This document shows positions 22,401-27,154 of a stretch of 64,000 nucleotides of DNA, in pieces. The DNA is taken from contig CAJQLE010000005.1 of assembly GCA_905479105.1 (NCBI GenBank), forward strand, positions 124,001 to 188,000, given 5' to 3'. The position numbers and the translations under genes were made by a program. Within the stretch, counting starts at the first letter, position 1. Each line of letters begins with the position of its first letter. The notes under the pieces were generated by a model, which worked only from the letters and a program-made list of their open reading frames with translations, searched no databases and was not told the origin of the DNA. This stretch comes from an uncultured Flavobacteriales bacterium (GTDB taxonomy: Bacteria > Bacteroidota > Bacteroidia > Flavobacteriales_G > Salibacteraceae).

Positions 22401-22958
22401 TTACTCAGATTCTATCTTTTTAGCCGTCAATTGCGCTTTGAAAATCTTCTCGTAAGCAATAAATAAAGCTACTGAATAGACTAAGTCTCCAGTAATGGTA
22501 TTTTGAAAAAATGGTATTGCCGCAGCATAACATGCAATCAAACCATCAAATGACATAGGATACATCAAGCCTCCTGCCCAAACACCAAAATTGGACACAA
22601 TGAAAAAAATCAGCGATGCCGCCAAGCTTCCTCCTAGCATCCTGGTCATTGTGACTTTCGAAAACAACTTAGTTCCTAAAAGGTAAATCAAAACAATGCT
22701 TGCGTAAATGAATATTGCACCATCCGTGAAAAGCGTAAACCCTCCAGTTGAATAAACTAGATTATTCAATATCAAATCACTGGCCATCCATGCCAGCATG
22801 GTTACCAATAAGCCTAAACCCTTTCTACCTAAATAAGCAGATCCGAATAAAGCCATTGCACCAAGAGGAGCAAAATTCATTGGATGAGGAATAAGCCTTG
22901 TCAAGGCAGCTACTATAATGATGGCAATAATTGCGATTGTCTTCTTGTTCATTTGCAT
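22401..22958 (-). CDS. DUF6580-type integral membrane protein
   Basis: 185 residues from ATG at 22958 (or 183 from 22952); a longer in-frame extension to 23069 would overlap the AlkD remnant and is not preferred. Five or six hydrophobic helices are visible: KTIAIIAIIIVAAL, FAPLGAMALFGSAYLG, LGLLVTMLAWMASDLIL, AIFIYASIVLIYLLG, LGGSLAASLIFFIVS and DLVYSVALFIAYEKIF. The pattern 'HPMNFAPLGAMALFGSAYL' is typical of DUF6580, a family resembling small-molecule ECF S-components. The substrate is unknown and no riboswitch was seen upstream. Confidence 0.75.
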   Translation of the reverse strand: MQMNKKTIAIIAIIIVAALTRLIPHPMNFAPLGAMALFGSAYLGRKGLGLLVTMLAWMASDLILNNLVYSTGGFTLFTDGAIFIYASIVLIYLLGTKLFSKVTMTRMLGGSLAASLIFFIVSNFGVWAGGLMYPMSFDGLIACYAAAIPFFQNTITGDLVYSVALFIAYEKIFKAQLTAKKIESE

Positions 22959-23041
22959 ACTGCGAAAATAGCCATCGTTTTGAAAAAGACACGCCAAGAA
23001 GTTTGAGCATTTTATTTCCTTTGACTTCAACACGTGGGATA

Positions 23042-23489
23042 ATGTATTCAATTCATCTTCTAAATTCATTGCAAAGCCAAGCCTCTGAAGAAAAGTGAGT
23101 TTGCATGGAGGCCTATATAAAGAATCAATTCACTTTCGTTGGGGTACCTTCTAAATTAAGGAAGGAAGTATTAAAGAGACATATTCGAATTCAAGGCATA
23201 CCAAGGGATGAACAATTTGAAATTGAAATAAAAGCACTTTGGAAACTCAAAATAAGAGAGCTCAACTATTGTGCTCAAGAATTAATGAATCAAAAGAAAT
23301 GGTTTAGGCAAAAAGACTCAATTCACTGACTAGAATGGATGATCTTAAACGAATCTTGGTGGGACACCGTTGACTATATTGCTACCACACTGGCAGGTTT
23401 CAAAATCAAATCCCGTGTTTGCAAGAAATTTTATAGCCAAGCATGAGCTAAAGCCATTAAGTCTGCGCGAAGCCAAAAAATACATCTAG
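23042..23489 (+). pseudogene. Decayed AlkD-type DNA alkylation repair gene
   Basis: Reading from ATG 23042 gives an AlkD-family N-terminus interrupted by in-frame TGA at 23096-23098. It continues as MEAYIKNQFTFVGVPSKLRK ... ALWKLKIRELNYCAQELM, hits TGA at 23327-23329, and continues in the same frame as LEWMILNESWWDTVDYIATT, the HEAT-repeat block of the family. At about 23400 some 75 family residues are missing. The true C-terminus NPVFARNF ... HELKPLSLREAKKYI follows in another frame (23407-23489, ending TAG). Two stops, a large deletion and a frame change make it a pseudogene. The intact family excises alkylated bases as a DNA glycosylase. Confidence 0.88.
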
Positions 23490-23855
23490 TCAAATTTCAA
23501 ACCTTGCAGACCATACCAAACCCTGGTATCGAACGATAACGATATAAATTCCACTCTTTAAATTGTTAGAAATATCTTCATGAGTGTTCACTTGACCACA
23601 TTCTATTTTAGCACTAAAGCTCTTGGCTTTCGTTCCCTGAACATCGAATACCTCAACGGAGTAAACCTCAGTATACTCTGACATTATCATTAACCCAAAT
23701 CCGTTTGGGCTATTAAACAGGGTTATTTCAAAACCTACTTCATTAAAAGTCGAATCTGCATCAAAAAATTCATTAGTCTGAGCATATAAATGATCAACAC
23801 TTGAGCCTAGCGCCAATATTATAACCACCAAACATACTCGATATGTTGCTTTCAT
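23490..23855 (-). CDS. Small secreted protein resembling a stand-alone T9SS sorting fold
   Basis: 121 residues from ATG 23855, which gives a signal peptide (KATYRVCLVVIILALGSSVDHLYAQ). The mature 96 residues resemble a type A T9SS C-terminal domain: 'VYSVEVFDVQGTKAKSF', then 'NNLKSGIYIVIVRYQGLVWSARFEI'. The initial YPNP-type motif is degenerate (FNSPNGFGL) and there is no cargo domain, so it could be a remnant of a larger gene or a true mini-protein. The stop abuts the AlkD pseudogene end. Confidence 0.6.
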   Translation of the reverse strand: MKATYRVCLVVIILALGSSVDHLYAQTNEFFDADSTFNEVGFEITLFNSPNGFGLMIMSEYTEVYSVEVFDVQGTKAKSFSAKIECGQVNTHEDISNNLKSGIYIVIVRYQGLVWSARFEI

Positions 23856-24022
23856 TGCTGCAAGTTTTCCACCCATAAAGATGTATAAAAACTATTGATT
23901 TTCACCACTTTAAGCGATTGATTATAGTCAGAAAAGAAGGTGATTAAAGGCATATAAGTTTATCTGATCGCAAATCCTTAAAAAGATGTGTAAAGAATTG
24001 GCAACTTAGAAGGATTAAGACC

Positions 24023-24085: not shown

Positions 24086-27000
24086 ATGAGTGAAAAGCTT
24101 CTAAAAGCGATGATGCAGCTATTTGCGATAATAGCTGACATTGACGAATTAAATAACAAGAGTAGAATTGTAGTTGAGCACTTCCTGAAACAACGGTTGG
24201 CGCTTGATCAAGTTGAAATCTATCTTGGTCATTACGATAAATATCTAGAAACGCATCATAAAGTTTCCACCAAAAAAGAGGGGAAACGCAAGAAGACTTC
24301 ACTAAACTCAGTGAAAGTTCTCAAGATCTGTACACAGATCAATGGCGAGTTAGAGCAGCGTCAAAAAATATTCGTTCTACTTCGCCTTGTCGAATACATC
24401 AATACGGATAAAACACCAACCGATCAAGAACTTGAATTCGTTGATACGGTATCCGATGTCTTCAACATTCCAAGTGAAGAGCTTTCTGACATCAAAAAAT
24501 TTGTAACCTGCTCCGAAACATCTGTTGAAGATTCTGAAAAGCTGCTTATCATTAACTCCCAGGAAGAATTAGCCAGCAGAACAAAGAATAAGCACATTAA
24601 GCATGACACCCTTTCTGGATCTCTATTGATCCTTTCGGTTGAGAGTGTAAACATGTACGCTCTAAAATTCTTTGGCGATGACGAATTACTTCTAAACGGG
24701 CAAATTATTGACCCTGAGAGAGTTTATATTCTTACCCAAGGATCTTCTATCAGAAGTTCTAAGGTCAGCCCTATTTATTACAGTGATATTATTAGCCGAT
24801 TCCTCAGTGATAAAAGTGTAAGTAAAATCATTTTTACAGCCGATGAAATCACTTATCGATTTAAAGGTGGCACTATTGGTCTTCATCCTTTAAGCTTTAG
24901 TGAAGAATCGGGGAAACTTATCGGAATAATGGGAGCCAGTGGATCTGGTAAATCTACGCTGCTGAATATTCTGAATGGAAATTACACACCGTATTCTGGA
25001 GCTGTAACCATAAATGGAAACGACATCCACCATAGCCGCGGAGACGTGAGCGGTATGATTGGATATATTTCTCAGGATGACCTTCTCATTGAAGAGCTGA
25101 CTGTATATCAAAACCTCTTCCTAAATGCTAAGCTTTGCTTTGATGGATTGAGTGATGAAGCCATTCGTGAGCGCGTTGATAAAACATTGATTTCTTTAGG
25201 TCTTTATGAGATTAAGGATATTGAGGTTGGAAACCCAATGAATAAAAAAATCAGTGGTGGTCAACGTAAGCGTTTGAACTGTGGACTGGAATTGATTCGA
25301 GAACCATCTGTTTTGTTTGTTGATGAGCCTACTTCTGGCCTTTCTTCCAGAGATTCAGAAAACATAATGGACTTGTTGAAGGAACTTGCTCTCAAGGGGA
25401 AGTTGATTTTCGTTGTAATTCACCAGCCGTCATCTGAAATTTTCAAGATGTTTGATAAGTTGATGATTACGGATACTGGCGGATACCCTATCTATTTTGG
25501 AAATCCACTGGACGCAATTGTTTACTTCAAAAGTGAAGTGCAAGCTATCAATCAGTCCGAAAGTGAATGTGCAAGATGTGGTAACGTAAATCCGGAACAA
25601 ATCTTCAACATCATCGAAGCAAAAGTTGTAGATGAATATGGCAATCTAACTGAAAAACGAAAAACATCTCCTAAAGAATGGAATGAAGTTTTCAATAGAA
25701 AATTCGATGAGGAACTAAACAAAGAAAACCCTGACCTTCCTGAAGTTGAATTCAAAACCCCTAACGTTTTTAATCAGTTTAAGGTATTCGTAACACGTGA
25801 TGTGCTTTCTAAAATCACAAACAAGCAATACCTGGCAATTAACTTACTTGAAGCTCCTTTGCTTGGATTCATTCTGAGTTATTTCCTGCGTTACATAATG
25901 ATTGGTGAGCAAGATTCTGGTGAGTACGTGTTCTATGAAAACGACAACCTTATCGTATACATGTTTATGGCAATTATTGTTGCCTTATTCCTTGGCCTCA
26001 CAGTTAGTGCTGAAGAAATATTCAAGGATCAAAAAATACGGAAGAGAGAATCGTTCCTCAGTTTGAGTAAAGGCAGTTATTTGATTTCGAAGATCGTAAT
26101 CATGTTTCTTCTTTCAGGAATTCAGATGTTCATGTTCATCTTACTGGGAAACTTGATTTTAGGAATTGATGGAGTGCTCTGGGATTACTGGCTTATCCTC
26201 TTCTCTACAGCATGTTTTGCTAATATGTTAGGGCTTAATATTTCAGCCAGTTTTAATTCTGCTGTGACTATTTACATCATTATTCCTTTTCTCATCATTC
26301 CACAGATTTTATTCAGTGGTGTACTTGTGAAATTTGAGAAGCTTAATCCTGTCATCACGTCTCAAAGTATTGTGCCCTTAATTGGAGAGGTTATGGCATC
26401 CAGATGGGCCTTTGAGGCTTTGGCCGTGAATCAATTTGTAGAAAACGACTATGAGAAGTTATTCTATGATTATGACCAACAAATGAGTGATGCCAACTTC
26501 AAAAAGAATTTCTGGATTCCTGAAATGAAGGCTAAGGTTGGAAAGTTCAAAGAATATTTACGAAATAAGGAGTCCGCAGATATTCAAGATCTAACGTCTG
26601 ATTTCAAAACTGTCCGTGGCGAAGTTTCGAAAGAGAATAAGTTCAATGATGCAATCACTTTTGACGAATTAGATCAATTCACTCTAGGCGGCATCAATCA
26701 AGAATTGCTGGAAGATTTCTCGACTTATTTGACTACTCTGAATAAGCTATATGTAAGACAGTGGAACAACAACAGTGATGAAAAAGACCGCGTCATCAGA
26801 GAACACCAAAAAACAGATGAAGAAAAGACTGCTTTCAACAATTTGAGAAACAACTTTGAAAATGAGTCATTGAGCGATTTAGTGACGAATAAGAATGAGT
26901 TTAATCAGATTACTGAATATGATGGAGAGCTCATCCAACGAGCTGATCCCGTTTTTAATATTCCTGATGGATTCAGATCTCACTTCTATGCACCTAAGAA

Positions 27001-27154
27001 ACTTGTTTTCGGTAAATATTACAGCACTAAGCAAGTGAATGTCTTAGTCTTATGGTTAATGTCTATTGCATTGGCTATAAGCCTTTATTTCGATGGATTG
27101 AAAAGACTTCTGAATGTTTTCTCTGAAGTAAAAATCTTCAATAAAAAGAAATAG
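24086..27154 (+). CDS. ABCG-like half-transporter with TerB-like N-terminal domain
   Basis: 1022 residues, much longer than a usual 600-residue ABCG half-transporter. Residues 1-145 are a helical TerB-like domain (MMQLFAIIADIDELNNKSRI). Residues 155-250 are a beta-rich, possibly FHA-like segment. The nucleotide-binding domain has Walker A GASGSGKST (283-291), signature ISGGQRKR (389-396) and Walker B VLFVDEPTSGL (409-419). After a CARCGNVNPEQIF stretch (about 493-505) come ABC-2-type membrane helices (about 590-770), then a 200-residue soluble insert, and a last helix near 985-1005. NBD-before-TMD order is White/ABCG style. Substrate unknown; probably a homodimeric exporter or envelope-lipid transporter. 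Confidence 0.85.
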   Translation: MSEKLLKAMMQLFAIIADIDELNNKSRIVVEHFLKQRLALDQVEIYLGHYDKYLETHHKVSTKKEGKRKKTSLNSVKVLKICTQINGELEQRQKIFVLLRLVEYINTDKTPTDQELEFVDTVSDVFNIPSEELSDIKKFVTCSETSVEDSEKLLIINSQEELASRTKNKHIKHDTLSGSLLILSVESVNMYALKFFGDDELLLNGQIIDPERVYILTQGSSIRSSKVSPIYYSDIISRFLSDKSVSKIIFTADEITYRFKGGTIGLHPLSFSEESGKLIGIMGASGSGKSTLLNILNGNYTPYSGAVTINGNDIHHSRGDVSGMIGYISQDDLLIEELTVYQNLFLNAKLCFDGLSDEAIRERVDKTLISLGLYEIKDIEVGNPMNKKISGGQRKRLNCGLELIREPSVLFVDEPTSGLSSRDSENIMDLLKELALKGKLIFVVIHQPSSEIFKMFDKLMITDTGGYPIYFGNPLDAIVYFKSEVQAINQSESECARCGNVNPEQIFNIIEAKVVDEYGNLTEKRKTSPKEWNEVFNRKFDEELNKENPDLPEVEFKTPNVFNQFKVFVTRDVLSKITNKQYLAINLLEAPLLGFILSYFLRYIMIGEQDSGEYVFYENDNLIVYMFMAIIVALFLGLTVSAEEIFKDQKIRKRESFLSLSKGSYLISKIVIMFLLSGIQMFMFILLGNLILGIDGVLWDYWLILFSTACFANMLGLNISASFNSAVTIYIIIPFLIIPQILFSGVLVKFEKLNPVITSQSIVPLIGEVMASRWAFEALAVNQFVENDYEKLFYDYDQQMSDANFKKNFWIPEMKAKVGKFKEYLRNKESADIQDLTSDFKTVRGEVSKENKFNDAITFDELDQFTLGGINQELLEDFSTYLTTLNKLYVRQWNNNSDEKDRVIREHQKTDEEKTAFNNLRNNFENESLSDLVTNKNEFNQITEYDGELIQRADPVFNIPDGFRSHFYAPKKLVFGKYYSTKQVNVLVLWLMSIALAISLYFDGLKRLLNVFSEVKIFNKKK

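Follow-up and report, generated by a model that had tools for sequence, protein, structure and literature searches.

Does the interval at positions 23042-23489 (+ strand) of the 64,000-nucleotide stretch of a Flavobacteriales genome analyzed here (the window) hold a broken DNA repair gene, and if so, what broke it, and how long ago? A reading frame of 119 codons at 23042-23398 (+, frame 1) begins with ATG, and its AlkD-like translation runs MYSIHLLNSLQSQASEEK, stop, VCMEAYIKNQ...SIH, stop, LEWMILNESWWDTVDYIATTLAG, with WWDTVDYIATTLAG as the final residues; this N-terminal part, which extends to the deletion junction described below, aligns with residues 1-119 of the orthologue in a genus mate, G003 (E = 1.2e-45, about 58-59% identity). 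The AlkD C-terminus, QVSKSNPVFARNFIAKHELKPLSLREAKKYI, is encoded at 23394-23486 in a frame differing from that of the N-terminal part, and is followed by a TAG stop at 23487-23489; this C-terminal part (23394-23489, +) aligns with the 31 C-terminal residues of the G003 protein (E = 5.5e-5, 61% identity). Read through its two TGA codons, the remnant scored 67.4 bits against PF08713 (E = 1.8e-18; curated cut-off, 21 bits). Because of this profile match, and because the G003 protein matches both pieces, we judge from the sequence that the resemblance is not chance and that the remnant is alkD, of the HEAT-like-repeat alkylpurine DNA glycosylase family. A sequence-only reading of this DNA had proposed an AlkD-like frame with TGA codons at 23096-23098 and 23327-23329, a C-terminus regained in another frame, and remains that are still clearly alignable; both stops are indeed present, and the matches just given bear out the other two points.

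Instead of one continuous frame of about 220 codons, the remnant has a frame interrupted by the two TGA codons and by a 212-bp deletion. The first TGA (23096-23098, +), at codon 19, stands where G003 has CGC and another genus mate, G011, has CGA; the second (23327-23329, +), at codon 96, stands where all six compared orthologues encode Leu (CTT in G003, TTG in G011). Compared with G003 and with G011 alike, 212 bp are gone (70 codons plus 2 bases), a loss that shifts the frame. The earlier reading had placed a loss of about 75 residues near 23400: the loss and its site hold, but the size is the smaller one given here. The deleted span runs from the C of CAGG in an Ala-Gly codon pair, which both relatives spell GCAGG, to a C in a Gln-Val codon pair, where it opens CAGG in G003 and CAAG in G011; a DNA alignment locates this gap with less precision. 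At the junction (23394-23398, +), one CAGGT is left, into which the CAGG of the left edge and the CAGGT of the right edge have merged. G003 carries CAGG at both deletion edges, and the right edge in G011 is CAAG, not CAGG. The junction is consistent with a deletion between direct repeats of 4-5 bp, although a match of that length may arise by chance.

The first TGA, the weakest of the three lesions, stands before a possible internal start: it lies 5' of an internal ATG (MEAY), which is the first ATG, GTG or TTG start in the uninterrupted frame of G011. A 74-codon open reading frame (23105-23329) is still open in the remnant. We also noted that alkD of G011 (locus L042, G011:C14, 9098-9790) has ATA at the position of the start ATG shared by the genome under study (G000) and G003; its frame has no ATG, GTG or TTG upstream of this ATA, and the earliest start available to it is the ATG of MEAY, 21 codons further in.

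We compared the locus across 13 genomes of the genus, one per species (G000 and 12 others). The G003 AlkD protein, used as the query, matched 8 of the 13, G000 included, and the match was near full-length in seven of the 12 others: without a stop in G001, G003, G005, G007, G008 and G011, and with one TAA in G009. In all seven, alkD lies between a DUF6580 gene on the opposite strand and an ABC transporter gene (in G005 the end of the contig cuts the transporter off after 86 residues). The same conserved flanks stand in the window, with the divergent DUF6580 gene at 22401-22958 (-) and the gene for a 1022-aa ABC transporter downstream at 24086-27154 (+). The longest DUF6580 open reading frame (22401-23069, -) overlaps the start of alkD; since its G003 counterpart begins MQMNKK, the true start is probably at 22958, with no overlap. 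Directly beside the alkD stop ends a 128-aa open reading frame (23490-23876, -) with a signal-like N-terminus and no Pfam match, which has a partial homologue at the corresponding site in two genus mates, G011 (59% over 90 aa) and G005 (34% over 87 aa). When the window genes were compared with 30 loci (L002-L031) in a search beyond the genus, the DUF6580 and transporter neighbours turned up in genus members alone, within the limits of flanks of 1.5 kb.

The remnant is identical at 95 of 148 residues with G011 and at 90 of 148 with G003, compared to 57-72 of 148 with G007, G008, G001 and G005. This greater likeness to G011 and G003 agrees with a tree of the ABC transporter, which was built without G005 (too little sequence) and with G002 represented in 28% of columns: G000 groups with G011 (support 81/75) and then with G003 (99/99), and G007 groups with G009 (100/100). 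A profile search of the G000 genome (2,787,496 bases in 7 contigs, 99.85% complete) found no PF08713 match other than the remnant itself, and hence no second copy of alkD; the genome of a laboratory Bacillus subtilis, run as a control, did match this profile.

A resident alkD gene has thus almost certainly been inactivated in place by the 212-bp deletion and the two TGA stops. The decay of an AlkD gene, as the sequence-only reading had it, is upheld by the uninterrupted orthologues at the locus in six of the 12 genus mates (and a seventh with one stop), by the three lesions and by the lack of a second copy. The starting state would have been a resident alkD whose product was a HEAT-like-repeat alkylpurine DNA glycosylase. 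A deletion between two copies of CAGG(T), for which strand slippage or joining at short homologies is the probable mechanism, would then have taken about 70 codons (residues 120-188 and surrounding bases) and shifted the frame, and two point changes would have given TGA at codons 19 and 96; this order of the lesions is presumptive.

We considered that a sequencing or assembly error might have disrupted an intact alkD. Such an error would have to account for two separate substitutions and a 212-bp deletion inside 450 bp, in a genome of the contiguity and completeness given above and with both neighbouring genes intact, and we regard it as very unlikely indeed. If instead TGA were decoded as an amino acid, the deletion would be the sole relevant lesion. 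Both internal stops are TGA, as that reading predicts, but TGA recoding is unlikely because TGA ends 15 of the 56 open reading frames in the window; the neighbours are of normal length, and the deletion breaks the frame regardless. We therefore rate recoding as the least credible of the alternatives, close to negligible.

A very small chance also attaches to the idea that a short peptide of 74 aa, covering the first HEAT-like repeats, is still produced from 23105-23329 and retained for another role. Its frame is open from an ATG and matches PF08713 (E = 1.7e-9). Moreover, at otherwise invariant columns the retained parts of the remnant deviate at 4-5 of 33-45, about as often as the six unbroken orthologues (0-12 of 33-45). 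However, this frame stops ahead of WWDTVD, the short form is absent from all seven orthologues found, and the sequence past its stop is equally alignable; the conservation is thus inherited rather than specific to the short frame.

How recently the gene was inactivated is less clear-cut. The earlier reading had taken the event to look recent, which is only weakly supported: the remaining codons look no more damaged than those of unbroken orthologues, but the presence of two stops hints at more neutral changes than a handful. Across the codons still present, the G000 branch carries 17, 12 and 25 substitutions at the three codon positions (17, 11 and 32 for G003; 20, 9 and 26 for G011). The pattern did not differ from that of the two relatives in a chi-square test of little power (P = 0.75) and so gives no sign of its own of relaxed selection; the share at positions 1 and 2 (29 of 54) fell just short of departing significantly from the two-thirds neutral expectation (P = 0.059). 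The corresponding own-branch counts were 15, 8 and 30 for DUF6580, 26, 12 and 65 for SRAP, and 43, 12 and 179 for the ABC transporter; by these counts, the neighbour genes are under stronger constraint on that branch than the remnant is. Together, the codon-position and invariant-column data favour little decay since inactivation. Against this, about 5-6.6% of random substitutions here would create a stop, such that some 30-40 neutral substitutions would be needed for two stops to be expected, and the chance of at least two stops after 10 is roughly 0.09-0.14; this argument is weaker if the first stop falls in a dispensable start region. Dating by dN/dS was dropped because silent sites among G000, G003 and G011 are saturated and dS was not computable. 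We conclude that inactivation came later than the split from G011, and give no finer date.

The intact gene provides a view of what was lost. The G003 protein aligns with AlkD structures (PDB 3bvs, 5cl3) over residues 10-219 (E = 7.7e-45). According to PMC8626424, Trp109, Asp113 and Trp187 are the catalytic residues of AlkD, whose source organism is Bacillus cereus according to a reference title in that paper. On the alignment of G003 with the structures, with a two-residue offset in 3bvs, Trp109 and Asp113 map to WWDSVD and Trp187 to AIGW; we infer the offset from Asp110 of that paper, which it brings onto the first D of WWDSVD. In the remnant, WWDTVD is retained, with the equivalents of Trp109 and Asp113, and the AIGW with the Trp187 equivalent lies in the deleted part. 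As read from its sequence, the remnant cannot encode the full AlkD enzyme, and with the Trp187 equivalent gone, its AlkD activity would be lost.

We surveyed four other alkylation repair families (PF02245, PF13532, PF01035 and PF00730) in the 13 genus genomes. AAG-type glycosylases (PF02245) and AlkB-type proteins (PF13532) each occur in one of the 13, and G000 has neither. Ogt/ATL-type proteins (PF01035) occur in all 13, with two in G000: a 162-aa protein with VPCHRI, which we take to be an Ogt-like methyltransferase, and a 111-aa protein with VPAHRV, presumably an alkyltransferase-like protein. HhH-GPD proteins (PF00730) likewise occur in all 13, with three in G000; one of these, of 198 aa, is a candidate AlkA-like glycosylase, its best NCBIfam match being DNA-3-methyladenine glycosylase 2 at 45 bits, far below the cut-off of 229. 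Since G000 keeps a candidate AlkA-like HhH-GPD protein, an Ogt-like protein and an alkyltransferase-like one, the effect on mutation pattern that the earlier reading had suggested is only a possibility.

The other genomes put this loss in context. No alkD lies between the adjacent DUF6580 and transporter genes in G002, G004, G006, G010 and G012 (L049-L053), where the best match was at chance level (E = 0.045); PF08713 matches that the G003 protein did not detect occur elsewhere in the first four of these, and none occurs in G012. These five genomes fall together on a weak branch of the transporter tree (84/75), so the absence may represent one loss or a primitive absence. In G009, alkD (minus strand; L045, G009:C1:32000-51999; also L012) has TAA at codon 47 of the compared frame, against CAA in its near relative G007, and is otherwise open; this is either another, separate break or a sequencing error. 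As placed on the tree, the G000 and G009 breaks are separate events, because they fall in different pairs, and in each pair the sister is unbroken or nearly so. On these comparisons, the alkD slot is unstable in the genus, with a remnant in G000, a stop in G009 and no alkD there in five. We raise only tentatively, as somewhat doubtful, the idea that these cases, together with the missing start in G011, reflect repeated loss through a genus-wide lapse of selection for AlkD; the AlkA-like HhH-GPD protein would then be the one candidate alkylpurine glycosylase left to most members.

Among the matches listed in a title-level literature search, no title described a loss of AlkD in this group. One alkD pseudogene alone is routine, with a related repair protein still present; a well-dated case in which a base-excision glycosylase was lost step by step could serve to ask if AlkD loss alters natural bacterial mutation spectra. 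The case is gene loss of an ordinary kind, affecting a known repair gene, and no new system. Compared to AlkD of Bacillus cereus (PF08713), to whose structures the intact G003 orthologue aligns and whose motif persists as WWDTVD, the remnant differs in its two stops and in the lack of about 70 codons, among them the equivalent of Trp187. Compared to the ordinary bacterial pseudogene formed in place by stops and a short-repeat deletion, it shows no notable difference, and shares with it conserved flanks, alignable remains and several lesions.
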